Part shown: piece after piece, positions 9,559-61,088 of the stretch
Layout: the number at the start of each line of letters is the position of its first letter
Position numbering within the stretch: position 1 is the stretch's first letter
Assembly: GCA_016415585.1 (NCBI GenBank)
Contig: CP066552.1
Span: forward strand, 2,418,001 to 2,482,000
Direction: 5' to 3'
Length of the DNA: 64,000 nt
Source: Pectobacterium carotovorum
Lineage (GTDB): Bacteria > Pseudomonadota > Gammaproteobacteria > Enterobacterales > Enterobacteriaceae
The notes under the pieces: model-generated
What the model saw: the letters and a program-made list of their open reading frames with translations, nothing else
Databases searched by the model: none
What the model was told of the DNA's origin: nothing
Program-made: the position numbers and the translations under genes

Positions 9559-11907
9559 TCATTTCTCTAATCTATCCAGTTCTCGTAGTCGGTTCCTTAT
9601 ATCCCTTTCCGTATCTTTGAAGACAGATAAAAATTTATTTTTCATCATATCTGCATGCGATTGGCTAGTCTTTTCACCCTCTGGGTAAATGTGTGCGGAA
9701 TCAAAATCTATGACAGAAAAACCCTGATCAAGGTTATATATAATATTACCTTTATTAATATCATGATGAACAATTCCTTTGTCCCTTAGGTAATTGGAAA
9801 GGGTTTCGTGTGGATTTTTTTTTATGCTTATCGACATGGCATTTAGTATTTCTTTATCTGAAACCACGCTAACTTCGCTTAATGGAACCCCTTCAATTTT
9901 TATTAATTTTGTTGCAACTGATGATTTTTCATTTGCATGCTGAGTAATCATTATGGTGGCAGAGTTAGGCCCATAGTACCGATTGAAACCTTTTACATTA
10001 TTTTTCGCGGATTGGATTCTTGAACGGTTATTTTTATCGAAATAACCTTTATATTTTTTTACAATATATCCATTTCCTATGTCATACACTGTGCCAATGC
10101 TTCCTTTAGCAATTATATTTAGAGTGTTAATATCATCAAAATCTATATTATTACTGGAGGAATCATATGGCGAGCAAAACTTACCCAAATTAGCCCCTCT
10201 TTTTTTTCTAATACAACCTGTTTCTTCAATCATTTCATTCTCTCTTTCCTCTTTTGGCCTTTGTAAAGATTTATTTTTCTGAACTGGCAAGATTTCAAGA
10301 TTATTTTCTTCATTACGATAAAATTTCTTGCCCCAAAAAAAACCGGCATCAATATTTATTTGAGCCAGTATTTCTCGTCCTTTTACCTTTCTGACAACAG
10401 CAACGTTAAGATTCTTATCATATTCAGGGCAATAAAGGGATTCAACCTTAATTGTCTTTTTGAGAGGAGCCTTCAGATGCCATTCATTTTCGGCTAGTAC
10501 AACTTCATAAGTATCACTATGAGTCTTTGAAGCATCGTAGATAAATGATTTGCCTGTTGCAGAGTCATGCCGATATGGAACCAGATGACCATACACTTCG
10601 ATGACTCTCAATTTTTTAGGATAGGAAGAAAATTTATTATTAGCTCTATATATCTTTGTTTTATCCGTTATACCAGAAGAGCAGCGATAACGCGTTCCAA
10701 TGGAAAACTTTTGTGCAACCTGTCGTTCCTGCTTACTGAAACGGTTAAATTTACCATTTCCTGTCGTCTCCCATTTGTTTGCAAAATGGTTAAAGTAAAC
10801 TTGATACTTCTGTACATCACCTTCTGCCACTCCAGGAACTAGAGCAAAAAAACGTCTATTGTGCTCTTTGATAGGGGTGCTTAAAACTTTCCCCTTGATT
10901 TCCACATCAATATGATTAACACCATTTTTGATATGAAATATAGGTAAACCAATTTTTTTTCCTGCTGTCGGTTCCATACTAAGACTCATTTTTTCCGTAC
11001 GGCTGACTTCCATAATGCTGAATTTAGCCTGCTGCATAATTTTCTGTATTATAGAACTTATTTCCTCAGGAGGAGTTTCCTTCCCCTCTAAATCATTAGC
11101 AGCGAGTTCAAGAAGCGGCCCTACAATATTTTGTGCAATGGCGAAATGTTTCCCCCCGGGAATAAGAACAACTAGAAGTGATATAGCTTCATCAATTTTT
11201 TCGACAATGTATTTTATTTCTTTAAATTCATTTGGTAATACACAGCCTGATTTTTCAATACCAGTTATTTTATTAATTAAATCAGTGAGTTCTTCGGTTG
11301 GTTTTCTGAGGGTTTTACCAATATGGCGTACTACCTGTGGGAAAGTTAAATTTTGCAGGAAAGATAAAACCTGCGGGAAAGATAAACTACGTAGGTCGTT
11401 TATACAGGAAAAATTTAAAATTTTTGAAAGTTCCCTGATTCTAAGAGGAAAAGGATGTTTCATGTTTTTAGGGGCGATTATGGCATGGCGTGGTAGTCGT
11501 ATCAACGCTGTATCGTTGCTAATATTTCCCCCGCCGCCTATAGTAGGTATAGTATTTGTAACTGATGATAGGCTAACGTTATTTTTAGCTATTTTTTGCA
11601 GCATGTTATCAGGGGGAAATATTCGCTCTTTAACTGTCAAATCACCTTCTTTTCTGAAGGGGGATGAAGGCGTTACCGTGCTGTTTTGCACGGAACTAAG
11701 AATAGAAAATAATTGTAATGCAGCGTGTGTAGTGTCCTGTCTGTTTCTATTATCGGCATGGCGCCCTGGCTGCATAGCCATTTTTTTAACGAGTGAATGT
11801 AGTGTTTGGTTATCCCCATATTTTCTTTCCAGCCAGTTTGCATGATTTCCTATAGCTTGTCGTTGTTGATTATAATTTGGTAATATTTTTGGCATATTTA
11901 TCCACAT
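9559..11907 (-). CDS. Large AT-rich protein with C-terminal minimal kinase domain (effector-like)
   Basis: A 782-residue protein, AT-rich compared with its neighbours, without a Sec signal. About 560 N-terminal residues match nothing I know: polar N-terminus, helical middle, then a beta-rich stretch around 350-540. The last ~190 residues form a kinase: glycine loop GSIGTVYDIG (about 595), lysine in YIVKKY, catalytic loop HHDINKGN (about 711, HxDxxxxN) and Mg-binding DFD (about 734). Only about 47 residues follow DFD, so the activation loop and lower C-lobe are missing, as in the type III effector kinases OspG and NleH. I infer an injected effector or toxin. No chaperone or secretion gene is adjacent. 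Met5 is an alternative start. Confidence 0.7.
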   Translation of the reverse strand: MWINMPKILPNYNQQRQAIGNHANWLERKYGDNQTLHSLVKKMAMQPGRHADNRNRQDTTHAALQLFSILSSVQNSTVTPSSPFRKEGDLTVKERIFPPDNMLQKIAKNNVSLSSVTNTIPTIGGGGNISNDTALIRLPRHAIIAPKNMKHPFPLRIRELSKILNFSCINDLRSLSFPQVLSFLQNLTFPQVVRHIGKTLRKPTEELTDLINKITGIEKSGCVLPNEFKEIKYIVEKIDEAISLLVVLIPGGKHFAIAQNIVGPLLELAANDLEGKETPPEEISSIIQKIMQQAKFSIMEVSRTEKMSLSMEPTAGKKIGLPIFHIKNGVNHIDVEIKGKVLSTPIKEHNRRFFALVPGVAEGDVQKYQVYFNHFANKWETTGNGKFNRFSKQERQVAQKFSIGTRYRCSSGITDKTKIYRANNKFSSYPKKLRVIEVYGHLVPYRHDSATGKSFIYDASKTHSDTYEVVLAENEWHLKAPLKKTIKVESLYCPEYDKNLNVAVVRKVKGREILAQINIDAGFFWGKKFYRNEENNLEILPVQKNKSLQRPKEERENEMIEETGCIRKKRGANLGKFCSPYDSSSNNIDFDDINTLNIIAKGSIGTVYDIGNGYIVKKYKGYFDKNNRSRIQSAKNNVKGFNRYYGPNSATIMITQHANEKSSVATKLIKIEGVPLSEVSVVSDKEILNAMSISIKKNPHETLSNYLRDKGIVHHDINKGNIIYNLDQGFSVIDFDSAHIYPEGEKTSQSHADMMKNKFLSVFKDTERDIRNRLRELDRLEK

Positions 11908-12218
11908 CTAATGTTTTAGTTACACATGTAAGTTACAATTTTTTGTTTCTAACTTCATGAGGGATTCTTGCTTATTAAAAATAGTATTTCTTCTATAAAA
12001 AAATCTTTCTTACTGGGAACGTTATGAGGTTCAAAATAAAAAATGAAACTTGATATTTTTTCCAGTGATTAAGCGCACTAAACCCGCACAGGCAGAGATG
12101 TCAGTTTCTGCAGGCTGTAGCAATTATGCGAAGCTATTAGATTAGGCTAAGAATGATAAACCGACAGAGAAAGGCATGAAACCGCGTTCATGCCCTTAAT
12201 TCTCGTATCTGGTGGTTA
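11908..12218. other. AT-rich intergenic region
   Basis: 311 bp upstream of the effector-like gene. It is AT-rich, presumably with that gene's promoter, and contains the ydfG terminator at its right end. No hrp-box or other named motif could be assigned with confidence. Confidence 0.4.
12173..12194 (-). terminator. Terminator after ydfG
   Basis: A perfect 8-bp stem GGCATGAA/TTCATGCC with a 6-base loop. On the minus strand it is followed by TTTCTCTGT. It sits 25 bp past the ydfG stop. Confidence 0.65.
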
Positions 12219-12968
12219 TCAACTTTCGCGATGTACGCTTAGCCCAGCAAAAGATTGGCTGACTGGCATCATTTCCAGCGTGTTGATGTTGACGTGTGCT
12301 GGCAACGTGGCAACCCAGAAAACAGCTTCAGACACATCTTCAGCCGTCAGCGGCGTTGTGTTGTCATAGGTTTTACTGACTTTGTCGTCATTACCTTTGA
12401 AACGCACGGCCGAGAACTCGGTTCCACCGACCAGACCCGGTTCGATATTCGTTACGCGGATTTGGGTGCCAGACAGATCGGCACGTAATCCCAGGCTAAA
12501 CTGCTGTACGAACGCCTTGCTGGCACCGTACACGTTACCGCCCGCATAAGGCCAGTTTCCTGCGGTAGAACCGATGTTGATGACATGACCGATATTACGC
12601 TCCACCATGGCTGGCAGCAGCGCGCGCGTCATGAACACCAGCCCTTTGTTGTTGGTATCGATCATATTTTCCCAATCATCTACCGATGCTTTATGCGCAG
12701 GCTCAAGACCCAGCGCCAGTCCGGCGTTGTTCACCAGCACATCAATCGTCCGCCATTCGGCAGGCAGGGTGGCAACGGCCTGTTCAATCGCCTGACGGTC
12801 GCGCACATCCAGTTTTAACGGATACAGCGCATCGCCCAGTTCCGCCTTCAGCGCATCCAGACGTTCCTGGCGGCGACCCGTCGCGATCACTTTATGGCCT
12901 GCGCTAATAAATTTACGCGTAATTGACTCACCAAACCCAGCGGTTGCACCGGTAACAAAAATAATCAT
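12219..12968 (-). CDS. ydfG: NADP-dependent 3-hydroxy acid / malonic semialdehyde reductase YdfG
   Basis: A 249-residue short-chain dehydrogenase. The cofactor loop TGATAGFG is at residues 6-13 and the NADP-selecting TGRRQER at 31-37. NNAG is near 81, and the catalytic Ser-Tyr-Lys is in INIGSTAGNWPYAGGNVYGASK. The C-terminus (VNINTLEMMPVSQSFAGLSVHR) is nearly that of E. coli YdfG. The enzyme reduces malonic semialdehyde (a toxic product of uracil breakdown) and oxidises serine and related 3-hydroxy acids. It is cytosolic, tetrameric and monocistronic here. GGAGAAAG precedes the ATG. Confidence 0.93.
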   Translation of the reverse strand: MIIFVTGATAGFGESITRKFISAGHKVIATGRRQERLDALKAELGDALYPLKLDVRDRQAIEQAVATLPAEWRTIDVLVNNAGLALGLEPAHKASVDDWENMIDTNNKGLVFMTRALLPAMVERNIGHVINIGSTAGNWPYAGGNVYGASKAFVQQFSLGLRADLSGTQIRVTNIEPGLVGGTEFSAVRFKGNDDKVSKTYDNTTPLTAEDVSEAVFWVATLPAHVNINTLEMMPVSQSFAGLSVHRES

Positions 12969-48273: not shown

Positions 48274-48602
48274 CCACAAAAAATACATTTGATATTATCA
48301 TGATAGGGAGAAGACACGCAGATTCTCCCCTTTTCATGTGAATTTAAGCGCAAAGCGTAAAAATCCGTAAAACATCCCGCACCAACATGACAATCTGTTA
48401 TCATATTGTTCGTTTTATTACGTTATAACTACTTTTTAGTAACCTTTTGCTGTTTATTGTTGTTCTACGTCTTTAATAAAGGGGTTTGCGACCTCAATAA
48501 ATTGCTTTATGCCCTAAATAGTTTGAGCTGCCAGTAGGCGGGCTTGAAATATGACGGGGATATTTTGCCGTATCATTCCTCTGGATAAGGAGAACTCCCG
48601 CA
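48274..48602. other. Intergenic region before chaA
   Basis: 329 bp. After the terminator it is AT-rich; near 48543-48567 GGCTTGAAATATGACGGGGATA resembles the right end of the mosaic repeat at 3681-4023. The chaA promoter should lie here. Confidence 0.5.
48306..48334 (+). terminator. Terminator after the siderophore reductase
   Basis: A 7-bp stem GGGAGAA/TTCTCCC followed by CTTTT. Confidence 0.75.
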
Positions 48603-49703
48603 ATGAAGTCTCATGCTGAGGTGGTCAAAACTCGCCATCACGAATACTCACTCATTTTTCCGGTTATTGCGCTGGCCGTGCTCTACATGTGGGGCACTTC
48701 ACAAAATTTTGTCGCCATTCTTGGCATCAACGCCATCGCGCTAGCCGGGATACTGTTCAGCGCCTTCAGCGTAGTACGCCACGCCGACGTACTCGCACAC
48801 CGTCTGGGTGAACCCTACGGTTCATTGATCCTCAGCCTGTCCGTCGTCATTCTGGAAGTCAGCCTGATTTCTGCGCTGATGGCAACCGGTGACGCGGGTC
48901 CGGATCTGATGCGTGACACCCTCTATTCCATTATCGTGATTGTCACTGGCGGTCTGGTCGGTTTCGCTCTCTTACTCGGCGGCCGTAAATTCGCCACACA
49001 GTACGTCAACCTCAGCGGCATCAAGCAGTACCTGATGGCGATCTTCCCATTGGCCGTGATTGTGCTGGTTTTCCCCAGCGCCTTGCCCGGTGGTAATTTT
49101 AGCGTAGCGCAATCGCTCATTGTTGCCGCTATTTCTGCGGCGATGTACGGCGTGTTCCTGTTGATTCAAACGCGCACGCACCAAAGCCTGTTTGTGTATG
49201 AGCATGAAGACGAAGGGGACGGTGACGATCCACACCACGGTAAACCGTCCGCGCACAGTTCACTGTGGCACACTGCCTGGCTGCTGGTTCACCTGGTTGC
49301 TGTTATCGCGGTCACCAAGACGAACTCCATGCCGCTGGAAACGCTGCTGACAGAAATGAACGCGCCGACGCAGTTTACGGGCTTCCTGGTCGCGTTATTA
49401 ATCCTCTCTCCTGAAGGGCTGGGAGCGATTCGCGCCGTTCTGAAAAATCAGGTGCAGCGCGCCATGAACCTGTTTTTCGGTTCCGTGCTGGCAACCATTT
49501 CACTGACGGTCCCTACCGTTACGATCATCGCCATGTTGACCGGTCGCACGCTGAATTTCGGTTTGGATATGCCACACATTGTGGTGATGCTGTCGGTACT
49601 GGTGCTGTGCCACATTACGTTCTCTACCGGTAGAACCAATGTGTTGAGCGGCAGCGCGCATCTGGCGCTCTTTGCCGCCTATCTGATCACCATCACGCTA
49701 TAA
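48603..49703 (+). CDS. chaA: Sodium-potassium/proton antiporter ChaA
   Basis: 366 residues, a CaCA-family cation/proton antiporter of the inner membrane exporting Na+, K+ and Ca2+ at alkaline pH. The two alpha repeats are visible: GEPYGSLILSLSVVILEVSLI (about 71-91) and FLVALLILSPEGLGAIRAV (about 258-277). An acidic cytosolic loop YEHEDEGDGDDPHHGK lies between. The match to E. coli ChaA is close throughout. AAGGAG precedes the ATG. Confidence 0.94.
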   Translation: MKSHAEVVKTRHHEYSLIFPVIALAVLYMWGTSQNFVAILGINAIALAGILFSAFSVVRHADVLAHRLGEPYGSLILSLSVVILEVSLISALMATGDAGPDLMRDTLYSIIVIVTGGLVGFALLLGGRKFATQYVNLSGIKQYLMAIFPLAVIVLVFPSALPGGNFSVAQSLIVAAISAAMYGVFLLIQTRTHQSLFVYEHEDEGDGDDPHHGKPSAHSSLWHTAWLLVHLVAVIAVTKTNSMPLETLLTEMNAPTQFTGFLVALLILSPEGLGAIRAVLKNQVQRAMNLFFGSVLATISLTVPTVTIIAMLTGRTLNFGLDMPHIVVMLSVLVLCHITFSTGRTNVLSGSAHLALFAAYLITITL

Positions 49704-49710
49704 TTCCCCT

Positions 49711-49736
49711 GCCGACGCGGTTTTCGCCGCGTCGGC
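49711..49736. terminator. Hairpin after chaA
   Basis: A perfect 10-bp GC-rich stem GCCGACGCGG/CCGCGTCGGC, 7 bases past the stop, without a U tract. Confidence 0.6.
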
Positions 49737-49866
49737 CTCACCAAAACTCACTTCTCTTGATGTATATCTGGATCTTCTGAGCGCGTCCGGCGTATCGTAA
49801 GGCTGTCGTCGACGGACCGGCAGGCCCGCCATATTGATTTACTTCCTTACTTTGGTTTCTGCTTAG

Positions 49867-51576
49867 ATGAAAACGCACGGAATTAACGGCGTCAGGCCGT
49901 TCAGCGCGCTGATCGATGCGTGCTGGCGCGAAAAATATACGCTGCAACGTTTTACCCATGACATTATCGCTGGCGTGACCGTCGGCATTATCGCCATACC
50001 ACTGGCGATGGCACTGGCCATTGCCAGTGGCGTTCCTCCGCAGTACGGACTGTATACGTCAGCCATTGCCGGGATTGTCATCGCCGTCAGCGGCGGCTCA
50101 CGCTACAGCATCTCAGGCCCGACGGCCGCCTTCGTCGTCATTTTGTATCCGGTGTCGCAACAGTTCGGACTATCCGGTCTGCTGGTTGCCACCTTGCTGT
50201 CTGGCGTCTTTCTGCTGCTGATGGGGCTCTGCCGCTTCGGTCGTTTGATTGAATATATTCCGCTTTCGGTGACGCTGGGGTTTACCTCCGGGATCGCTAT
50301 CACCATCGGCACCATGCAAATCAAAGATTTTTTCGGCTTACAAATGGCAGTAGTGCCGGAACATTACGTCGAAAAAGTGGCTGCGTTGGTGCAATCGCTG
50401 CCGACCCTACATCTTGCGGATACATTGATTGGTGCAACGACGCTTCTGGTTCTTATCGTCTGGCCCAGACTCGGTATTCGCCTGCCCGGCCACTTGCCTG
50501 CGCTGCTGGCAGGCGTCGCGGTGATGGGGATCATGTCGCTGCTTGGTGAAAATGTGGCCACCATCGGTTCCCGATTCAGCTATATGCTGGCGGACGGTTC
50601 GCAAGGGCAAGGGATTCCGCCTATCCTGCCGCAGCTCATTCTGCCGTGGGATATTCCGTCACCGGATGGGAAGACGATGACGCTGGATTGGCAAAGCATT
50701 TCTGCTCTGCTGCCTGCGGCGTTCTCGATGGCGATGCTGGGGGCAATTGAGTCGCTGCTGTGCGCCGTTGTGCTGGACGGGATGACGGGCAAAAAACACA
50801 ATTCTAATGCAGAGCTGATGGGTCAGGGCTTCGGTAACATCATCGCACCGTTCTTTGGCGGCATTACCGCGACCGCAGCGATTGCCCGCTCCGCAGCCAA
50901 CGTGCGCGCAGGAGCAAACTCGCCGATCTCCGCGGTGATTCATGCACTGCTGGTGTTACTGGCGTTGCTGATACTGGCGCCGTGGCTGTCTTATCTGCCG
51001 CTGGCGGCAATGGCGTCGCTGTTGTTGATTGTCGCCTGGAACATGAGTGAAGCGCACAAAGTAGTGGATTTGCTGCGCCACGGACCGAAAGACGACATTA
51101 TCGTGATGCTGCTCTGTATGTCGCTGACCGTGCTGTTCGATATGGTGATCGCGATTACCGTCGGTATCGTGCTGGCATCCCTGCTCTTCATGCGTCGCAT
51201 CGCGCAGATGACCCGGCTGAGCGAACTGCCGGACACCAAAATCCCGGATCATCTGGTGCTGCGCGTTAACGGCCCGCTGTTTTTTGCCGCGGCGGAGCGC
51301 ATCTTCAACGAACTGACCGTGCGCAGCGAAGGCTATCAAAATATCATCTTACAGTGGGATGCGGTGCCGGTACTGGATGCAGGCGGACTCAATGCGTTCC
51401 TGCGCTTTAGCGAAACGCTGCCTGAAGGTAAACAGCTCATCATCACCGACATTCCGTTCCAGCCGCTAAAAACGCTGGCGCGGGCGAAGGTTCATCCGAT
51501 TGAAGGACGGCTCAGCTTCTACGGTTCATTAGCGCAGGCGATTGAGGCGACGACGGCACAACGCAGCATGAAATAA
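49867..51576 (+). CDS. dauA: C4-dicarboxylic acid transporter DauA (SulP family)
   Basis: 569 residues. SulP permease with a C-terminal STAS domain (about 440-560; [17 protein letters not shown] marks the strand-helix of STAS). The N-terminal membrane core has [25 protein letters not shown] and [18 protein letters not shown], close to E. coli YchM/DauA, an aerobic succinate carrier active at acidic pH. Inner membrane with cytosolic STAS. Ribosome site weak; start chosen by agreement with the family N-terminus. Confidence 0.92.
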
Positions 51577-51648: not shown

Positions 51649-52359
51649 TTACCCCGTGACGGAGTAGAGCGAGGGAGCACGTGCAGATAGCTCTAAGGGG
51701 CGTTCGGCAATCAGTTGTTCAAAGAACACGGGGAGTGGCCGATTTTTCACGGTAAACCGAAAATCCAGACTCACTCGGGTAACATCACTATCATTTTTTA
51801 CCGTGCCGTGGTTTAGACAGCTTCCATCAAAAATTAACGCTTCACCATAGCGAACAAGAATCGGCCGAAAATCTTTGCGACCATAATCGGTTTCAACCCA
51901 CAGGCAGCAGCTTTCATTGGTATCAACAAACGGCATCCAAACGTTAACCTGATCATAGCGACCTGTGACCTGTGCATCCGTATGCCATGCGCTACAGGCC
52001 GGTAATCCAGCCAGATGGACACGCATTTCTGGATGCTCGGTATAGATAATTTTCCCGCCGAAATGATAAGCAATAAGGCTTTTTATAAAACGATGATATA
52101 ACAAATAGAATAGCCCATTCTCAGGAACGGCACGCATCCGATTACGTAAATAGGTCATATCCTCCGTAGAAAGGCGCGCAGCACGCCCTTTTTTTTCATG
52201 GGATCGAATGCAATGTTCATGCAGCCGCGAAAGCGACAAGCCAAAAAATGCTTCCTTCCTGAAGGCCCACGCAAACGGAAATGCTCGCGTGTCGTAACGA
52301 AGGATCATCAACTTTTTATCACCCTGGTAGCCTTGCGAGTCAAGCACACCATTCATCAT
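51649..52359 (-). CDS. 2-oxoglutarate/Fe(II) dioxygenase-like protein of the borosin-type cluster
   Basis: 236 residues. The facial triad of a phytanoyl-CoA-type 2-oxoglutarate oxygenase is visible: His126 and Asp128 in AWHTDAQ, and His184 in CLNHGT. An arginine for 2-oxoglutarate follows in RVSLDFR. The region between has VNVWMPFVDTNESCCLWVE, normal for the double-stranded beta-helix. The start is 4 bp after the stop of the methyltransferase gene, and its Shine-Dalgarno (AAGGAG) is formed by the end of that gene, so translation is coupled. I infer that it hydroxylates the peptide or protein modified by the methyltransferase. Other substrates are possible. Confidence 0.8.
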   Translation of the reverse strand: MMNGVLDSQGYQGDKKLMILRYDTRAFPFAWAFRKEAFFGLSLSRLHEHCIRSHEKKGRAARLSTEDMTYLRNRMRAVPENGLFYLLYHRFIKSLIAYHFGGKIIYTEHPEMRVHLAGLPACSAWHTDAQVTGRYDQVNVWMPFVDTNESCCLWVETDYGRKDFRPILVRYGEALIFDGSCLNHGTVKNDSDVTRVSLDFRFTVKNRPLPVFFEQLIAERPLELSARAPSLYSVTG

Positions 52360-52363
52360 GGCC

Positions 52364-54550
52364 TCACTCCTTTTCTAACAACGTGACCAGCTTTACGATT
52401 GCCAGATTACTCTGCACAATTTTCTGCCAATTTGCCCAGAACAGAATGCCACCGCTCTCCTCCCCAAGACGTGCAAACTGAGTAATGTAGCGAGCCTCTG
52501 CATCAGGTACACCTAACTCAAACCAAGGCACTGGCCGCAATACAACACCATCAGCCAACTTTTTCATTCCGATGAGTCTACTGCCATTTTCATCAACACC
52601 AAAGCAATGGTGCGTTCCTGATAAGGGATCAAAAACAAATGTTAATCGCCCGATAGTGTTCTTACCCTGCCATATAATACTGTTTCCCTCACGACGACTA
52701 AGCAGCATAGGCTTATCATCCAAAAGCAGTGTACCCTCTTCTACACGGGCTTCCAGGATTTGGCTCGTTCCGTATTGTTTTCTTCTTAAGGAATATGCAC
52801 CAATGAACGTGTCAGCCATTTGCTCAATCATGATAGCCTCTCGCTCAACAAGCGTTGCTGTCGATGCCGTAAATGGCATCAGAGCGACAGCGTCAATCCG
52901 CCCTCCTGCATACCCTGCTCTTCCGTTTGCGGAAATACTGCCGACAGCGACAGTACGATGCCGAGCGGTTCGCGCAAAACGAAACATCCCCTCCGTCTGG
53001 TTGCCCCCACCAGCTTTCCAACTCAAACAACCATTATGGAAATCAGCACGATGTACCACGTCCCCATTAATATACAAAGCAATCTTGTTATGACCAGAAA
53101 ACGGCGCCAGCATACATATCACCGTTCGGGTATTCGCATCGTAATAGATCCCACTCCAAACATATGCCGTTCGCTGCCCAGCACGTGCCGCATCATGAGG
53201 TAATTCGTTATAAGACACGCCATAGTGTTCAAATAAATCATGGAGTTGAGAAATTTTTTTTGTTTTTATAATACGACGCGCAATGCGTGGGTGACGGACA
53301 ATATCGTCCAGTAGCGCTCTGTTCCCTGCCGAACGTTTATGGAGACCTTTTGCTGCAATCTGCACCATGCCAGGGTCTTTGCTCGCCATCAACTTCATTT
53401 CTCGCTCCCCCATTCCTTGAAAAGGGGGGGTGCTGAGCGCATCAAATGAGTTTGCCTCATAACGCTTGAGCAAATCGGGGTTTTGCAACAATTCAACAAT
53501 AAAGCGCGCCGCTAAGGTATCTTCCTGCCATTTGTAACCTGCAGGGACTTTGAAATCGACAAGTGCGTCAAGTGCACGTTTCTCTTTTTTAGAATATTCG
53601 GCAATTTTGCGCAGCGGGCTGGAAGGATTGAGCGGCTTATGACCTGGTTTCAGAAGGCCCAGCTGGATAGCACGTTCAGGATTAATCGGACGAATATCTT
53701 TTGGCGGCAGGTAAAAGGTCGAAATGCCGGTGACTTTCTGTTGAATACTTGGGTCGTACAAATCACGAATACAGTATTGTTCAATCGTTGGTGGAATCCC
53801 GGGGTAGCGCGATGCTACGTAATTAATGAGGGTATGATCTTCACCATAAAACGCTTTCAGATAGTCAACGAGTAGAATGAAGTTGTTGTTGAGATAGCCA
53901 AGCCGCCGATAGCCAAGTTCACCGATCAACCCCACCTGCCACAACACAACATGTGCTGCGGTATCAGGTTGTTTATCTCGGATCATCATGTCACTCGCTT
54001 CATAGGTCTGTAAGCCAGGTGAACTGGGATCAACCCCCAGATCGGCACACAGACAGTCAAGCGCACTGATACCCGGGCGCATGAAAGCGGTATGACCCTC
54101 TTTGCGTGCAATTTGTATAGCTCGGTGCGTAGACAAAACAAAAATGCCAGGGTGTCCGTAATAAATACCAACAACATGCTTACCACGGCGAACGTGATGC
54201 AACATGGCCTCGGTCATTTGCATGTAAGTGGCATAGCGGGGCTTACTGTCATCGTAGAAGACATAAAGATCAAACGCATCAGGCCGCTGTTCTTTAATCC
54301 AAACCACGGTGGCAGGATCGGCGACGCAATAAAAAACATAGTCCGCCGTGTTAATAAAGTTCTCATCCTGACGACTAAAACTCACTGCCTCGATCCCAGA
54401 ACCAATGATAGTCAGCTTTCCAGGGGCTCCTCCCGCCACCACGCCACCATTATGCACATTTGCTTTAGCGATATCCTGAGCTAGATCTTCCCATGCCTGT
54501 GTCCGTTCTTCTTTTTGGGGATAACGTTTTGATTGATGAATATCGAGCAT
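52364..54550 (-). CDS. Borosin-type peptide backbone N-methyltransferase with C-terminal extension
   Basis: 728 residues. Residues about 45-290 are a tetrapyrrole-methylase-fold SAM enzyme closely resembling the fungal borosin enzyme OphMA: TIIGSGIEAV, ADYVFYCVADPAT, YYGHPGIFVLSTHRA, ALDCLCADLGVDPSSPG, YEASDMMIRD, GISTFYLPPKD. The OphMA active-site set Tyr63, Tyr66, Arg72, Tyr76 aligns with Tyr96, Tyr99, Arg105, Tyr109 at identical spacing. A helical region (about 342-403) resembles the borosin binding/clasp part. About 320 more residues follow, beta-rich and unknown, ending in a hydrophobic tail (NLAIVKLVTLL). ATG 54550 has GAGG 9 bases upstream; 54556 is an alternative. Confidence 0.85.
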   Translation of the reverse strand: MLDIHQSKRYPQKEERTQAWEDLAQDIAKANVHNGGVVAGGAPGKLTIIGSGIEAVSFSRQDENFINTADYVFYCVADPATVVWIKEQRPDAFDLYVFYDDSKPRYATYMQMTEAMLHHVRRGKHVVGIYYGHPGIFVLSTHRAIQIARKEGHTAFMRPGISALDCLCADLGVDPSSPGLQTYEASDMMIRDKQPDTAAHVVLWQVGLIGELGYRRLGYLNNNFILLVDYLKAFYGEDHTLINYVASRYPGIPPTIEQYCIRDLYDPSIQQKVTGISTFYLPPKDIRPINPERAIQLGLLKPGHKPLNPSSPLRKIAEYSKKEKRALDALVDFKVPAGYKWQEDTLAARFIVELLQNPDLLKRYEANSFDALSTPPFQGMGEREMKLMASKDPGMVQIAAKGLHKRSAGNRALLDDIVRHPRIARRIIKTKKISQLHDLFEHYGVSYNELPHDAARAGQRTAYVWSGIYYDANTRTVICMLAPFSGHNKIALYINGDVVHRADFHNGCLSWKAGGGNQTEGMFRFARTARHRTVAVGSISANGRAGYAGGRIDAVALMPFTASTATLVEREAIMIEQMADTFIGAYSLRRKQYGTSQILEARVEEGTLLLDDKPMLLSRREGNSIIWQGKNTIGRLTFVFDPLSGTHHCFGVDENGSRLIGMKKLADGVVLRPVPWFELGVPDAEARYITQFARLGEESGGILFWANWQKIVQSNLAIVKLVTLLEKE

Positions 54551-54561
54551 AGACATGTTCC

Positions 54562-56397
54562 TCAGGAAATTTTTTTCAAATAACGAATGACGACACCACA
54601 TGCGACCTTGATAGGCAGGCATTGATCGTCATATGTCGCTTTAGATAATAGGATGTAACCCTGATATTGGTCGCTCCCCGAACCCGCATTGACCATTTGG
54701 TTGACGACATCATCGATGCTGGATTCCGGCCATGTCCAATTTTTGAGTGCTGAATCTTCCGCAGCGTTCTTCGTCATTAGAATGTTAGCGACGAGCATAT
54801 TTTGCTCATCTACCGTTGGATTCCCTTGCTGAACCCAATCTGCAAATGTTTTCCAGCGTGTTTCTACTGAGTTGTTGCCATTGAACATATAGTTAACCAA
54901 CATGCCCGTTGATGAGGCTTGTTGGGGCGCCTGGTTATAGAGGCTTTCTTCACCTGCTTTACGCCAAACACCAAGTAACTTACTTGCACTCTGAAAAGCG
55001 AACATAATGGCCAGATTTTTTGCCAGAGCTTGGAAACCTTTATTGATTATCCAATTGCCAATTTTGGTAAGCGAAGAATCGACAGTACCGGAAGGCACAT
55101 CAACATCGGTATCAACGCTGGTATCCGTATCAACATCAATATTCGTATCCTGATCGGTATCCACATCCACATCCACGTCAACATCCGCATCTATATCGAC
55201 ATCTATATCGACATCGACAAATACCACATCAACATCAATATCCACATCGATATCCACGTCAATATCCGTGTCCTGCACCACATCAATATCCGTATCCACG
55301 TCAATGTCCGTGTCAACATCGATATCGATATCGACATCAACATTAATCGGGTCGATATCTTCTGCGTCATCCGGCTCAAAACTGGCGGATTCATTACTGG
55401 TTTGAAACCGATTGGCAATTTTGTTGTAGAGAGACTGAGACTGATTCACCAGAGATTTCATACCGCCGGGTATCGCTTTCATAATAGTGACAGCCATATC
55501 AACCATCATATAAACCTGAAAGCCAAGATAGGCGGTATAGGTTAGATCATAGGAGATAACCCACCAGGGAATAGTTGGACCGGTATAAGTTTGAGCGATA
55601 ATTTTATTGCCATTATTCGTGCCCAGCCAGTACATACCAAATGTATCAGGCTTTCCTTCCCACGCCATTTCACGATAAATACCTCTGAGATCAATGCCAG
55701 AAGTTTTCGTCGCACCGCTCGTTGTTAAGTTACCATTTACATAGGATAGTACTTGTTCAGATGAGCCATTCGCCGGTTGGTACATTGCCTGACCATCAGC
55801 AATAACAACCGTCGCACTAAGCTCATCAGGGAACACAAATCCATAATCATTATTGCTTTGATAAAGGTAATATTTACCTGGCCAAGCATAAAGAGAATTT
55901 AATGCCCAGAAAGTCACTATCGAAAAAGCATTATAGGTACAGCCTTTATATTGTGTGTTATCGAAAAAATTTTCTATTTGTGTATTAAGCGTCAGAATAT
56001 TATCTGGATTAAGCAGAATTTCATTAAATTGCAACGCAGTTGGAGAGTAAGGTTGCGCGGTATATTGCTGATAAAAAGCAAAAGCCTGATTAGAAGCATT
56101 CTGCATATCCGTTGTGACGGTAAATGTCTGCGTTCCACTAGGCGCAAGGATATCAGGCACCCACAGGGCAACGGGGAACTGGTCTTCTTCTCTGACAATG
56201 ACCAAGCGAGCAACTAAAGCCTCGATATTAATATTGGCAGAACCATTCCCAGGAACCGTGCCAGTTTTAGTATAAATCTGATCTAAATCCTCAGGAGAAA
56301 GATTATCTGAGCTAGATGGCTTCGCATCCATTGTTGAATAAACAATAATATTTGATGGAAGCATGTTTTTTATATTGACAAAGTTATTAGATGACAT
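54562..56397 (-). CDS. Unknown membrane-associated protein with Val/Ile-Asp repeat (cluster protein B)
   Basis: 611 residues, no signal peptide, family not recognised. Residues about 1-270 share a pattern with the next gene upstream (56499-58133): AFYQQYTAQPYSPTALQF aligns with KFYQYIQAYPTSNTATNF, and FFDNTQYKGCT...YYLYQS with FFQGTKQFKNCT...FYMYQS. Hydrophobic stretches lie near 153-179, 275-311 and 459-480. Residues about 350-437 are an alternating Val/Ile-Asp repeat. The start follows AGGGGG. Its stop is 12 bp from the methyltransferase start, so they form one operon. It may be the methyltransferase substrate, a carrier or a pore-like partner; none is proven. Confidence 0.7.
   Translation of the reverse strand: MSSNNFVNIKNMLPSNIIVYSTMDAKPSSSDNLSPEDLDQIYTKTGTVPGNGSANINIEALVARLVIVREEDQFPVALWVPDILAPSGTQTFTVTTDMQNASNQAFAFYQQYTAQPYSPTALQFNEILLNPDNILTLNTQIENFFDNTQYKGCTYNAFSIVTFWALNSLYAWPGKYYLYQSNNDYGFVFPDELSATVVIADGQAMYQPANGSSEQVLSYVNGNLTTSGATKTSGIDLRGIYREMAWEGKPDTFGMYWLGTNNGNKIIAQTYTGPTIPWWVISYDLTYTAYLGFQVYMMVDMAVTIMKAIPGGMKSLVNQSQSLYNKIANRFQTSNESASFEPDDAEDIDPINVDVDIDIDVDTDIDVDTDIDVVQDTDIDVDIDVDIDVDVVFVDVDIDVDIDADVDVDVDVDTDQDTNIDVDTDTSVDTDVDVPSGTVDSSLTKIGNWIINKGFQALAKNLAIMFAFQSASKLLGVWRKAGEESLYNQAPQQASSTGMLVNYMFNGNNSVETRWKTFADWVQQGNPTVDEQNMLVANILMTKNAAEDSALKNWTWPESSIDDVVNQMVNAGSGSDQYQGYILLSKATYDDQCLPIKVACGVVIRYLKKIS
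55081..55350. repeat. Degenerate GAT-ATC/GTC hexamer tract coding Val/Ile-Asp alternation
   Basis: About 270 bp of imperfect 6-bp units on the minus strand (Asp alternating with Val or Ile, with occasional Thr or Gln). Codon choice varies along the tract, so it is not a fresh slippage product. Runs of alternating Asp could bind divalent cations or form a beta-strand. Confidence 0.85.
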
Positions 56398-56498
56398 CGC
56401 ACCCCCTGTTTTATGGCCACCTTAAATATATAATAAAAACACCGACAAAATAAAAAAGGAGAAAAGGAAAGAGAAAAACATTTCTCTTTCCAATAGAA

Positions 56499-58133
56499 TC
56501 ACATTACACTCATATCGAAATCTGGTCCTTCAGGAGAATCACCGCTCTCTTCATCAGCTTGTCTCTCGTTCATGGCTTCTTGCTGTTCTTTCAAATCATT
56601 CAGATTTTCATTGGAGGCATTTATTTCATCTATTGTTTCCGAACTAATATCATCACCTAAATTCTGAACGATGGACTTCAGGCTCGAATCTATTTCATTG
56701 AAAGTAATTTCAAGGCTTGAGCTTACTTCTTTTATTTCAGGAAGCGTTGAAGCATTAGCTAACTCTTCTGATGCAGAACGTAATTTCTGAGCCACGTCCT
56801 CTATTTCATCGTTCACACCATATTGAGCAATTTTATCAAGCTGGTTACTATATTCATCGATCTGCCCCTGTAAAACAGTTCGTTGCTGCTGAAATGACAG
56901 CTCATCAGCAGCAGCTTGCATATTTTTGCCAGCAGAATCAAGATCGCTATCAAACTTAATATCTGACTGTGCTCTATCAGCCACATCTTGGTTGTTTTTA
57001 GCGATTTGTTCAGAAATCGAGTCTAACTTATTATTAATCTCTTCATTCTGCTCTTTTGTTAACTCTTTTTCTTGATTTTCTCTTTCTTTAGCCAGCCTGG
57101 CTTTCCGTTTACCCCAAGTAAGTTCATAAACAAAGTGCACCCCCATTAACAAGCCAACACTGTTACTTATGTAATCAAAAATAGTCGAAAAACTAGTTGA
57201 GCTTTTCGTACTAAGATCTTTTTTATCTTTCGTACCACAGGATTGATTTCCATTTATCGTCCCTGACATCATTGGAATTACGCTATCCGGTGAATTATTA
57301 CCATTGTTAATTTGATTGCTTGACACCCAACTTATGACCAAACAAATAGATGGAAAATCTGCATTAACATCAGAAACAAACTGACCTTTATTGTAAGTCA
57401 GACTCGTATTTTTACCACTTGAGTCGGTATAAAAAATACTGTAACCACCATTATTATCAGTCAAATCAAATGGCACTTTTAAATTATTTAAATTAAATAT
57501 AACCTGACCATTGGCCACCACATCATCAGATGTTGATTGATACATATAGAAAGTATAAGAAGGATTAAAGCCTACAGAAGTGCCAGCAAAAGTTCCTATA
57601 TAACTCTGAACACTTGCATAAGTCACTGAAGTACAATTTTTGAATTGCTTTGTTCCCTGAAAGAAAGTATCAATAGCATTCTCTGCCGGAGGCTGGGTCT
57701 GCGTACCATTATTCTGCTGACTTTTCAAAGCACTAATGAAGTTGGTTGCAGTATTGGAAGTAGGGTATGCTTGAATATATTGATAGAATTTATAGGTATT
57801 TTCCATTGCATCGAGTGCATCACTAGCTATGCTATAAGGAGGATAGACATCCGAAGTCGAAGTTAATGGTAGGCTCGCGCTTGTATCCGCCACCGGAAAG
57901 CCATTCGATGGTAGAGAAAACACCACATCATAAATCAGATTGTCGGTATCAAGCATAACATCGGTCGTACTATTTGCTGCAATTTGATTATCACTCCCAG
58001 ACGTCTCCAAATAGCTTAATGATGCTTGATAGATCATTTCCATCGACGGTGAATCACTTGTATCAAAAGAACTAATTGCATTAACCGATTTATTAGTTTC
58101 ATTGGTCACCGACCATTTGCTATTGTTAGCCAT
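56499..58133 (-). CDS. Unknown membrane protein with coiled coil (cluster protein A)
   Basis: 544 residues, no signal peptide. The first ~270 residues align with protein B (54562-56397), so the two are paralogues. One hydrophobic segment (about 318-336, YISNSVGLLMGVHFVYELTW) is followed by a basic stop-transfer (GKRKARLAKE) and a long coiled coil (about 345-520, rich in Glu, Gln, Asn), ending in an acidic tail. Probably inner-membrane anchored with the coiled coil in the cytosol. GAGGA precedes the ATG. 101 bp separate it from protein B. Function unknown; position suggests a structural or substrate role in the borosin-type system. Confidence 0.7.
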   Translation of the reverse strand: MANNSKWSVTNETNKSVNAISSFDTSDSPSMEMIYQASLSYLETSGSDNQIAANSTTDVMLDTDNLIYDVVFSLPSNGFPVADTSASLPLTSTSDVYPPYSIASDALDAMENTYKFYQYIQAYPTSNTATNFISALKSQQNNGTQTQPPAENAIDTFFQGTKQFKNCTSVTYASVQSYIGTFAGTSVGFNPSYTFYMYQSTSDDVVANGQVIFNLNNLKVPFDLTDNNGGYSIFYTDSSGKNTSLTYNKGQFVSDVNADFPSICLVISWVSSNQINNGNNSPDSVIPMMSGTINGNQSCGTKDKKDLSTKSSTSFSTIFDYISNSVGLLMGVHFVYELTWGKRKARLAKERENQEKELTKEQNEEINNKLDSISEQIAKNNQDVADRAQSDIKFDSDLDSAGKNMQAAADELSFQQQRTVLQGQIDEYSNQLDKIAQYGVNDEIEDVAQKLRSASEELANASTLPEIKEVSSSLEITFNEIDSSLKSIVQNLGDDISSETIDEINASNENLNDLKEQQEAMNERQADEESGDSPEGPDFDMSVM

Positions 58134-58205
58134 GTATATTTCCTCACGTTAATTTATGCCAAAATAATCAATTAAAAGCAACACTATCATTATCTACTAC
58201 TGCCG

Positions 58206-58494
58206 CTATAGCGCTATAATACTGGAAAATATCATCAATATTAAGAAAGGCACCAAGATAACCATATACCTATATTTTGGCCACTTCTGAAAACTAAAAG
58301 TTATTCTATAATAATAGTGGGGCTGCTTATTATTATAGAATAACGTCGAATTCTTTGCATTATCACCATCAATATTATCCGCAAACAGAATCAATTCAGA
58401 GAAATGACCTTCCGATTGAGGCATAAACATAACAACCAGCATTGACTACATCTTGAGGAACTGAATTATTTAATACGAAAATATAATCTCTCAT
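58206..58494 (-). pseudogene. Small frameshifted gene at the head of the cluster
   Basis: ATG at 58494, preceded by GGGGGG, opens a 32-codon frame (MRDYIFVLNNSVPQDVVNAG...) that stops at 58396. An overlapping +1/-1 frame continues to 58206 as SEGHFSELILFADNIDGDN... and ends in a transmembrane helix (MVILVPFLILMIFSSIIAL). Together they read as one ~95-residue membrane protein broken by a frameshift. Alternatively they are two small overlapping genes. The N-terminal pattern (YIFVLNNS) recalls the N-terminus of the cluster proteins. Confidence 0.45.
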
Positions 58495-58985
58495 CACAGC
58501 CCCCCTTTTTTATATTTATTGAACTTTAAACCATCATTAATACAGAAGAATATCGTAACCATATACGAATAAAAATCAACGTGATAAATGGCCGACAGCT
58601 AAATATCAAGAGTGCGCTAAACGCCATTAATAGGCAGATACGAATCTATGAAACTGCACAGCGCCGCTAAATAATCCGTGTCGTTCAAACAACATGGCTC
58701 ACATGGAGAGCAGGCTTTTCTATATTTCCTTTTCTCCTCTTCGGTAGTAGTTTGCTGCGCACTATCCTGATGGGTATAAATTAAAGCTTCATTATGGCGG
58801 CAAGGAAGTAAATCTCGATGAGCATACTCAGGTAAGTGCACACTGCTCACAGCGGAGCCAAAGGGGCGAGTCTCACGCGTACACAGCTAATGTACATGCA
58901 ATTTGGAGAATGACGAATAGAGTGGTTAATTCAGGTATATTGTCATGGTTCCCACTTTCGACTAACGTGTTGAGGAGACCTAATT
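58495..58985. other. Intergenic region with repeat relic
   Basis: 491 bp. The left part should carry the promoter of the cluster. A 77-codon minus frame (58617-58850) ends in a Cys-rich tail but begins inside the repeat relic at 58811-58917; I do not count it as a gene. The right end carries the folM ribosome site GAGGAG. Confidence 0.5.
58811..58917. repeat. Diverged copy of the mosaic intergenic repeat
   Basis: GATGAGCATACTCAGGTAAGTG matches GATGAGCTTACTCAGGTAAGTG in the 3681-4023 element except one base. It then continues with the same order of motifs (GGGGC, CACGCG, GTACATGCA, AATGACG), truncated and degraded. Confidence 0.65.
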
Positions 58986-59708
58986 GTGGCAACTTTTTCT
59001 TCCGCTCCCGTGTTAATCACCGGCGGCGCACGGCGTATTGGGCTGGCACTGGCGCGTTCGTTTATGGCTCAGTCGATTCCTGTCATCATCAGCTATCGCA
59101 CGCCTTATCCCGAACTAGAGGCGCTACAGCAAAACGGTGCTATTTGCCTGACCGCCGATTTTTCCACCACGGAAAACCTCTATGCGTTTGCGGAGCAAAT
59201 CCAGTCGCTTACGCCGCAGCTGCGCGCCATCATTCACAATGCCAGCCGCTGGGAGCCAGAAAGCCCCGCGACACCGCCAGAACAAACGCTGGCCGATATG
59301 CTACAAATTCACGTCTATACGCCCTATTTACTCAATCAACTGTTGGAATCTTGCCTGCGTGGGCAAGGTATCGCAGGTGCCGACATTATTCATCTGACGG
59401 ATTACGTAGTAGAAAAAGGTAGCGAGAAACACATCGCCTATGCTGCCAGTAAGGCGGCGCTGGATAACATGACGCGTTCCTTTGCCCGCAAACTGGCACC
59501 GGAAGTAAAGGTAAACGCCATTGCCCCCAGTTTAATCACATTTAAGGAGCAAGATGACGAGGGATATCGTCAACAGGCGCTGGACAAGTCCTTGATGAAA
59601 ATTGCCCCTGGTGAAGAGGAAATTGTCCGACTGGTGGATTATCTGTTCAGCAGTAACTACGTCACTGGAAAAACGTTGGGGGTTGATGGCGGTCGGGCTT
59701 TGCGCTAA
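58986..59708 (+). CDS. folM: Dihydromonapterin reductase FolM
   Basis: 240 residues, a pteridine-type short-chain dehydrogenase. The TGGARRIG cofactor loop (residues 12-19) has the NADP-binding RR, then HNAS and the catalytic Tyr-Lys in HIAYAASKAALDNMTRSFARKLAPEVKVNAIAPS. It reduces dihydromonapterin to tetrahydromonapterin and has weak dihydrofolate reductase activity. The GTG start at 58986 follows GAGGAG. Close to E. coli FolM. Confidence 0.92.
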   Translation: MATFSSAPVLITGGARRIGLALARSFMAQSIPVIISYRTPYPELEALQQNGAICLTADFSTTENLYAFAEQIQSLTPQLRAIIHNASRWEPESPATPPEQTLADMLQIHVYTPYLLNQLLESCLRGQGIAGADIIHLTDYVVEKGSEKHIAYAASKAALDNMTRSFARKLAPEVKVNAIAPSLITFKEQDDEGYRQQALDKSLMKIAPGEEEIVRLVDYLFSSNYVTGKTLGVDGGRALR

Positions 59709-59885: not shown

Positions 59886-61088
59886 TTATTTCGTCTCTTT
59901 TTTCTTCACTCGCGCCTTACGCTGGTACGCTTTATTGCTAGCGACATACGTCAGGTAGGCTGCACGCGTCAGCCCGCCAGTACGCTGGGCGAAGGCATCG
60001 TAGGTCGTATCAGGTGGAAAACCAAACTCGGCCAATGCCCGTTCCCACGCTTCACGATGTGCCGGTTTGTGCAACGTTTTATCGTAGTCAGGGAAACCGT
60101 TACCGGCAAAGCATTCGGCTGATACGCTGCTATAAGCCCCATTGTTCATATAGCTGCGCCCAGCTTTAAAAGCGGTATCCTGACTGGCTTTCTCGATCGA
60201 ACACGGTCCCCATGACAGGCGATAGCCACTTTTCTGTGCGCTGATGCTTGGGCCATAGCCAACCGGGAACAGAATGTCGTCTTCCGACAACGTTTTCGAT
60301 CCCACATACTCATAGTTACCGCGCAGAAACGAGTGATCCATAACAATCGAGCACTTTTCAGACAAGGGTGATGCCACGATCTCCGACAGAGGGAGATTAC
60401 GCTCGGTTGTGCGAAGCAGATAAGGTCGAACAAACAGCGGCATCGTCATCACATCATTCCAGATGCTGTGTTCAGCAAACAGTTCGTCCTTTTGCATCTG
60501 ACGCAGGTTACCAATCACCAGAACATAGCCATCGGTATGCAAATCTATTTCGACCCGAAAGATATCGCCCGGAACCGTTTTATGCTGCTGGTTTTTCGCA
60601 CTCATCAACCGTTCCAGTTTGTGCGCATAATCCGCCGGCAATCGCTCGCGATAAGATCGCAGCCAGTCGACAATCTCTTCTTTAGTGGTCAAATGACGGC
60701 ATTCTGGCAACGGTAGTCCGATTGAGTTGCGGTAATTGCTGGCGTTGATATAACCGTAGCTTCCCGAGTTCAGCGTTCTGACGCCCGCAGAAAACACAAT
60801 GCCATCGGCCATCACGCTGGAAACGCTGGTGTACGTCAGCTTCTTTTCTTTACCGCGCGCGGTTCTCGGCAAAATAACGTCACGTTCGCGCGTGTGAATA
60901 ATGACGTCTTCTTCCTGATAATTTAACTCGGTGGCGGTAATGCGCTTACGGACCGTGTCGCCATCGAAGCAGATGAAATAGTCGTTACGCACGGTGATAA
61001 TATCCCATTCAGACGACAACGGTTCCAGCCCGAAGTAAGGACGTAAGGCTTCCTGCATCCAGCTGTTTATCTGTTCAATCGGTTTCAT
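59886..61088 (-). CDS. Hypothetical protein with a possible Imm26-like domain
   Basis: 400 residues, no signal peptide. It is not Tus, which might be expected beside rstAB, as none of its motifs are present. Residues 1-130 are mixed with ITATELNYQEEDVIIHTRERDV. About 172-200 has GDIFRVEIDLHTDGYVLVIGNLRQ, a pattern reminiscent of the immunity protein 26 barrel, but no toxin gene is adjacent. The C-terminal half is unknown, ending in a basic tail (KARVKKKETK). Convergent with folM and divergent from rstA. Function unknown. Confidence 0.6.
   Translation of the reverse strand: MKPIEQINSWMQEALRPYFGLEPLSSEWDIITVRNDYFICFDGDTVRKRITATELNYQEEDVIIHTRERDVILPRTARGKEKKLTYTSVSSVMADGIVFSAGVRTLNSGSYGYINASNYRNSIGLPLPECRHLTTKEEIVDWLRSYRERLPADYAHKLERLMSAKNQQHKTVPGDIFRVEIDLHTDGYVLVIGNLRQMQKDELFAEHSIWNDVMTMPLFVRPYLLRTTERNLPLSEIVASPLSEKCSIVMDHSFLRGNYEYVGSKTLSEDDILFPVGYGPSISAQKSGYRLSWGPCSIEKASQDTAFKAGRSYMNNGAYSSVSAECFAGNGFPDYDKTLHKPAHREAWERALAEFGFPPDTTYDAFAQRTGGLTRAAYLTYVASNKAYQRKARVKKKETK

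Follow-up and report, generated by a model that had tools for sequence, protein, structure and literature searches.

A putative split-borosin cassette with an alternating aspartate array in Pectobacterium carotovorum

Described borosin systems and the locus under study

In the omphalotin system (OphMA/dbOphMA), the backbone N-methyltransferase and its clasp are in the same protein as the core, which is at the C-terminus, and the pathway releases the peptide; cleavage of the methylated precursor is described for the fungal types I–III in general (passages of PMC11285071). According to the available passages of PMC11395268, the cores of type III alternate acidic and other residues, and KchMA, a bacterial member of this type, methylates mainly nonpolar residues, the modified ones (742–796) being located on the methyltransferase itself. 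On the contrary, SonM and SonA of Shewanella (type IV) are a separate enzyme and precursor: SonM (263 residues) has no clasp, SonA (about 75 residues) has its own binding domain, and the passages of PMC8429565 state that none of the type IV pathways has been linked to a final natural product. Methyltransferase and core are also separate in types VII and VIII; these types are predominantly bacterial, and in type VIII about 160 residues come after the core (passages of PMC11395268). Here we describe four genes of Pectobacterium carotovorum (GenBank assembly GCA_016415585.1, contig CP066552.1) which may encode a system of this split kind. "The window" refers to the whole stretch that was analysed, 64,000 nucleotides (positions 2,418,001 to 2,482,000 of the forward strand).

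The four genes are on the minus strand, and we call them, in the order of transcription, PA, DV, MT and OX (Table 1). The first-pass annotation, made from the sequence alone, had described four open reading frames separated by 101, 11 and 4 bp, and this layout is correct. In the list of open reading frames, the frame of MT is open from position 54622 onward.

Compared with published descriptions, and without claiming a new type, the cassette would belong to the split borosins, among which type VIII is the nearest, and its core would resemble those of type III. If the array of DV is the core, it is found, as in type VIII, in the gene next to that of the methyltransferase (residues 352–434 of 611), and 177 residues follow it; its alternation of acidic and other residues is that of type III, but it is located in a separate protein, unlike the modified residues of KchMA. 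By sequence, MT has the clasp region and the catalytic residues of OphMA but lacks an Asp-alternating core of its own. Two components, the array-less paralog PA and the oxygenase OX, have no counterpart in the description of types VII and VIII in the passages of PMC11395268; the comparison was made with the published description of these types, whose named members are AinM, PruM and PmoM. The arrangement had been presented as probably new by the first-pass annotation. In listings of open-licence papers, none came up on a borosin cassette that includes the oxygenase and the paralog, or on the conservation of the four genes over phyla. The arrangement is nevertheless not entirely new, since split borosins with a separate core (types IV–X) and alternating acidic cores are already published (passages of PMC11395268).

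Table 1. Features of the putative cassette in the window (protein lengths from the list of open reading frames)
Feature	Position	Strand	Basis
PA, array-less paralog of the putative precursor, 544 residues; helical region predicted in place of the array	56499..58133	-	hhalign, model
Terminator-like perfect 11-bp stem-loop with T-rich tail, 8 nt past the PA stop	56466..56491	-	stem scan
DV, putative split-borosin precursor, 611 residues; folded part 1–345, array, helical C-terminal part 435–611	54562..56397	-	sequence, AlphaFold model
Array, 83 residues (DV 352–434), Asp alternating with Val/Ile/Thr with few breaks; predicted core	55096..55344	-	sequence, 55 relatives, model
MT, predicted OphMA-like peptide backbone N-methyltransferase, 728 residues; clasp region to about residue 408, extra C-terminal region	52364..54550	-	PDB and profile matches, residue conservation
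OX, putative Fe(II)/2-oxoglutarate oxygenase, 236 residues; H126-x-D128...H184...R195	51649..52359	-	conserved residues, weak profile matches

The methyltransferase, the array and their partners

MT is predicted to be a borosin-type backbone N-methyltransferase with a clasp region, in agreement with what the first-pass annotation had proposed. Its 25 top matches in the PDB are all chains of OphMA, dbOphMA, MroMA and SonM, with E values from 2.5e-75 (dbOphM, the best) to 9.2e-41 (SonM matches at 2e-41), while the next one, a cobalt-precorrin-4 methyltransferase, is found at E 0.16. The profile of the MT family, built from 21 sequences (that of the window and 20 relatives), aligns with residues 3–377 of OphMA, clasp included (E 7.3e-109). 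Pfam does assign MT to TP_methylase (2.3e-11), and the NCBIfam models of YabN and cobM/cbiF, which MT matches weakly and far under the cut-off, also recall the cobalamin and siroheme methyltransferases; considering the gap between the two groups of PDB matches and the clasp in the profile alignment, the idea that MT is an ordinary enzyme of that kind is extremely improbable, and we reject it on the basis of the sequence.

The OphMA-like strings that had been pointed out are real, and so are the four catalytic residues: Y96, Y99, R105 and Y109 are spaced 3-6-4, like Y70, Y73, R79 and Y83 of KchMA. Together with Y131 and Q205, which correspond by spacing to Y105 and Q179 of KchMA, these residues are invariant in the 21 aligned sequences. 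The passages of PMC11395268 place the six residues of KchMA in the catalytic, S-adenosylmethionine (SAM) and substrate sites, and report that the R79A, Y83F, Y105A and Q179A variants are less active, while Y73F has little effect.

Beyond about residue 408, MT continues into a region for which the sequence gives no convincing relative of solved structure. The C-terminal end of the protein belongs to the region that is common to its relatives. In a single comparison, the C-terminal region of MT resembles the N-terminal part of the (Thr-Glu-Val)n precursor-like proteins mentioned below (hhalign 71%, E 3.7e-5). No run of at least five x-Asp pairs is present in MT, nor in the 120 listed of its 369 relatives, a test that cores of other compositions would escape. 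Judged by this test, MT does not carry its core at its C-terminus as the fused borosins of types I–III do, and we reject self-methylation of MT at an Asp-alternating core. MT is present as a single copy in its genome.

The key to the locus is probably a feature of DV that the first-pass annotation did not mention, the Asp–Val array, which is likely to be the substrate of MT. A genome scan yielded at least 546 relatives of MT, from which 80 loci were kept, and DV is present in 21 of these. In all 21, DV lies immediately upstream of MT, in the same orientation, and the two open reading frames overlap or are separated by no more than 228 bp. Such arrays also occur without the DV scaffold: in Pseudoalteromonas (L023), as a bare open reading frame of 94 residues between MT and OX, and in L079, in the C-terminal part of a 276-residue protein beside a methyltransferase of 272 residues. 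Among the open reading frames of at least 60 residues in 81 loci, an alternating acidic pattern was otherwise matched by two frames antisense to DV genes (in L026 and L029) and by two unrelated frames (in L061 and L078). The array is probably the core peptide of MT, because DV adjoins MT wherever it is present, scaffold-free arrays are found beside methyltransferases, and no x-Asp run is seen in the listed relatives of MT.

The array is conserved. It was counted in 55 sequences: that of the window, 44 of the 61 DV relatives found at E up to 0.001, and 10 of the 21 DV loci. The 17 relatives left out are six stronger ones (excluded for length or likeness to others) and the eleven at the bottom of the list, among them fragments and weak matches to the array alone; the last six of the 61 (E 4.6e-9 and weaker) are perhaps matches to the array only. 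The median length is 77 residues (range 25–93), and 1,518 of the 1,775 Asp–Asp spacings are exactly 2, 96.2% being even. The composition (43.1% Asp, 28.8% Val, 13.0% Ile, 9.0% Thr) is partly built in, since the segment was chosen by a score that rewards these four residues; the Asp spacing is not. A hydrophobic break within the array, such as DFIAVVDVD, is seen in 48 of the 55 sequences. In the window, the codons of the array are mixed (four are used for Val, three for Ile) and the DNA repeat is mostly degenerate (64–73% matches, with one stretch of 28 bases at 86%), so that the pattern looks selected at the level of the protein; taking into account the conservation in 55 sequences as well, we reject the idea that the array is due to slippage of the DNA alone. 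In the AlphaFold model of DV (predicted local distance difference test, pLDDT, 79; predicted template modelling score, pTM, 0.79), the parts before and after the array are confident and helices flank the array, whereas the pLDDT is below 50 for residues 352–431.

Other repetitive sequences were observed next to, or in, borosin-type methyltransferases. In L033, L035 and L037, a methyltransferase of 434–458 residues is followed by a precursor-like protein with a (Thr-Glu-Val)n array near its end (11390–12316, 11218–12210 and 11335–12318, respectively), another acid–aliphatic repeating core, and then by a homolog of OX. At its end, the methyltransferase of Erwinia phyllosphaerae (L034, 9440–12442) carries a long tail of (Ala-Glu-Ala)n / (Val-Ala-Glu)n, a short piece of which is found in a methyltransferase from Xenorhabdus (L039, 600–2516). 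The methyltransferase proteins of three Bacteroidota loci (L051, L054 and L061) have Asp/Asn-rich stretches and then a CFLTTAVV-type C-terminal part. L079, with its SonM-sized methyltransferase and its Asp–Val/Thr array protein, is from a metagenome-assembled genome (MAG) labelled Bifidobacterium breve, a label that is possibly wrong.

Fe(II)/2-oxoglutarate oxygenases are recognized by an HxD...H facial triad and a C-terminal Arg. The first-pass annotation had taken OX for such an enzyme, and the four residues (H126, D128, H184 and R195) are indeed conserved in at least 90% of 30 OX sequences. It may be that OX hydroxylates the array, which the position of its gene suggests.

PA and DV had been described as two related, membrane-associated proteins. 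The relation is clear: the N-terminal part of PA aligns with residues 1–317 of DV, up to shortly before the array (hhalign probability 99%, E 2.4e-18). Membrane association is weakly supported, since DV has one 19-residue stretch with a mean hydropathy of 1.37 and PA none above 1.3. The model of PA has a pLDDT of 75 and a pTM of 0.64. The stem-loop that follows PA may point to production of PA in excess, as for the major subunits of some structural operons. Of the PA–DV gaps, 18 were scored and three left out; stems of at least 9 bp, starting 4–22 nt past the PA stop, are present in 7 of the 18 (the window, L002, L003, L006, L015, L017 and L032); such stems were reached by none of 200 shuffles in six of these gaps and by one of 200 in L032. 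The best stems in ten DV–MT gaps, which are shorter, have 1–6 bp. When 7.5 kb were scanned by pattern, 10 sites looked like terminators, compared to 6.0 in shuffled sequences.

Distribution and gain of the cassette

The four genes are co-conserved. The sequences thus bear out neither of the two findings that would have overturned the first-pass annotation, an affinity of MT to cobalamin or siroheme methyltransferases with no clasp, and a lack of co-conservation. In 16 of the 21 DV loci all of them are present in the order PA–DV–MT–OX; OX is downstream in 20 and PA upstream of DV in 17. Regarding the four loci with no PA upstream, three (L004, L005, L013) have at most 1,993 bp of sequence before DV, and in L016 the match to PA is downstream. 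According to the record titles, the hosts belong to several phyla and include Gamma-, Beta- and Alphaproteobacteria, Paenibacillus, Flavobacteriaceae, Pedobacter, cyanobacteria, Nannocystis and a Williamsia MAG.

Plasmids also carry the cassette: 12 of 72,556 plasmid records match MT, and in three of the four that were opened (Mycetohabitans B5 and B3, Azospirillum lipoferum 4B) the four genes are in the same order, with transposase genes nearby. The Azospirillum plasmid (L104) has two copies of PA. The fourth opened locus has a short methyltransferase, and its gene table contains no PA, DV or OX gene. A known anti-phage system is rejected, since OX, MT and DV matched nothing in PADLOC with E values up to 0.01; PA alone matched ZorA1 (0.0021) and PbeC (0.006), over its helical part. 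Carriage by phages is rejected as well: a single relative was found in viral contigs, the scope of this search, the collection of phage records lying outside it, and it matches residues 44–303 only.

In P. carotovorum the cassette is an insertion, in all likelihood acquired horizontally. When each species of the genus is represented by one genome, MT is found in one of 25, and the N-terminal part of DV is found in one of 392 genomes of a sample of the family. MT is nevertheless present, with 93% and 88% identity, in strains named P. parvum and P. brasiliense, respectively, so its presence varies. In eight of eight relatives whose sequences were fetched (out of 24), the cassette is absent and the flanks (48601–51556 and about 58900–59700) align; a patch near 58655–58780 also aligns in six of them, and L095 has about 3 kb of other DNA at the site of the cassette. 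The GC content of the cassette genes is 37–48%, compared to 57% and 53% in the two neighbours.

Upstream of PA, only short open reading frames are found (58134–58494), two of which, overlapping on the minus strand (58206–58494), one with a hydrophobic end, resemble the remains of a broken gene. Beyond a folM-like gene, the minus strand encodes a protein of 400 residues (59886–61088) with an Imm26 immunity domain at residues 173–286 (Pfam E 3.1e-21); this gene is outside the recurring cassette.

What the cassette may make

We consider it likely that the locus is a horizontally acquired split-borosin cassette in which MT methylates the array of DV, OX hydroxylates and PA is a partner. The sequences themselves establish the families of the enzymes, their active-site residues, the conserved array, the order of the genes and the insertion, whereas DV as the substrate, the modified residues, the action of OX and the part played by PA are inferred. 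MT would transfer methyl groups from SAM to amide nitrogens in the backbone of the (Asp-Val/Ile/Thr)n array, most likely those of Val, Ile and Thr, about every second residue, while OX would hydroxylate the same array or its surroundings. PA would probably be a structural partner of DV. Since the four genes have no other recurring gene family next to them, we favour a modified array that remains within DV and forms a protease-resistant, amphipathic, acidic segment of the beta type. A beta-strand that is N-methylated at alternate positions pairs on one edge only and resists proteases, which suits a long, soluble, acidic and amphipathic strand.

A number of observations weigh against this scheme. 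The array is internal to DV, between two folded parts, and not terminal as in OphMA or SonA. When the 91-residue clasp segment of MT is searched alone, it matches no borosin chain. OX scores under the curated cut-offs (TIGR04324 SpoChoClust_2, E 1e-8, 35.1 vs 150 bits; Pfam PhyH, 16.8 vs 22 bits). Acidic residues at the tested site of an engineered KchMA are unmethylated, which is why methylation is expected chiefly on Val, Ile and Thr, but the wild type has some methylation on Asp (passages of PMC11395268), so that the exact sites in the array are uncertain. The cassette itself is not uniform: L011 has no OX within 6,876 bp downstream, another gene separates MT and OX in L009 and L014, PA and DV are 465 bp apart in L007 and 1,974 bp in L028, and the stem is shorter than 9 bp in 11 of the 18 scored PA–DV gaps. 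Last, the neighbours of the cassette were grouped by clustering, without domain annotation. The intervening genes of L009 (12238–13851, 537 residues) and L014 (12231–13661, 476 residues) encode proteins with similar starts.

A classical pathway for a ribosomally synthesized and post-translationally modified peptide coincides with our scheme up to methylation, and is possible although we do not expect it: a host protease would cut the array out of DV as a long N-methylated peptide, the folded parts being leader and follower, and PA a chaperone or carrier. The cleavage of fungal precursors of types I–III after methylation (PMC11285071, in the passages available) is a precedent, the bare array of Pseudoalteromonas looks like a precursor peptide, and in the Azospirillum plasmid two ABC (ATP-binding cassette) transporter genes, about 1.2 kb upstream of PA, weigh on the same side. 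On the contrary, no further gene family is present in more than 4 of the 22 loci (333 neighbouring open reading frames, clustered by likeness only), and the C-terminal part of DV is as conserved as the N-terminal part (median identity to the window sequence 0.36–0.38 vs 0.27–0.39), which argues for a product that stays a protein. This is the basis of a bolder and rather unlikely proposal, that the product is the whole protein: a scaffold of 600 residues, its 80-residue Asp/Val array hydroxylated and N-methylated at every second amide, in an assembly with the array-less paralog, the more abundant of the two.

Two other explanations give the array a role of its own. It may be an unmethylated acidic segment that serves a structural protein in metal binding or adhesion, the substrate of MT being elsewhere; the regular Asp spacing would suit a ladder of divalent metals and OX could make hydroxy-Asp, but arrays of the same kind are found beside borosin-type methyltransferases in three protein contexts, and alternating acidic cores of type III are in print (passages of PMC11395268), which makes this improbable. 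We regard as quite improbable that PA and DV are a membrane-active or pore-forming pair, the array being a membrane segment and its modification a maturation or a protection. The amphipathic alternation, the modelled helices that flank the array, a weak profile similarity (E 0.013) between PA and the hemolysin II C-terminal domain, and the variability of the C-terminal part of PA among Pectobacterium relatives (identity 0.49–0.82) would fit a pore; however, most other profile matches of PA, the best one included, are coiled coils, Foldseek gives no match at E up to 0.001, the hydropathy is low, no immunity gene recurs in the 22 loci, and N-methyl groups would presumably block the hydrogen bonds of a beta-barrel.

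If the whole protein is indeed the product, the cassette would encode a structural or surface protein built around a long, one-edge, amphipathic and acidic N-methyl beta-strand, in a four-gene unit that has moved between phyla. The available passages assign no function to bacterial split borosins, a statement that a later paper on borosin function, judging by its title (Lee 2024), may have outdated. The cassette is compact, with four genes and an evident, regular candidate substrate, and its hosts include culturable ones (Pectobacterium, Vibrio, Massilia, Paenibacillus), so that the question of function can be directly tested. Its enzymes may be able to methylate a single chain at tens of alternate positions of the backbone, and this may be a case of backbone N-methylation in the service of a protein and not of a small peptide.

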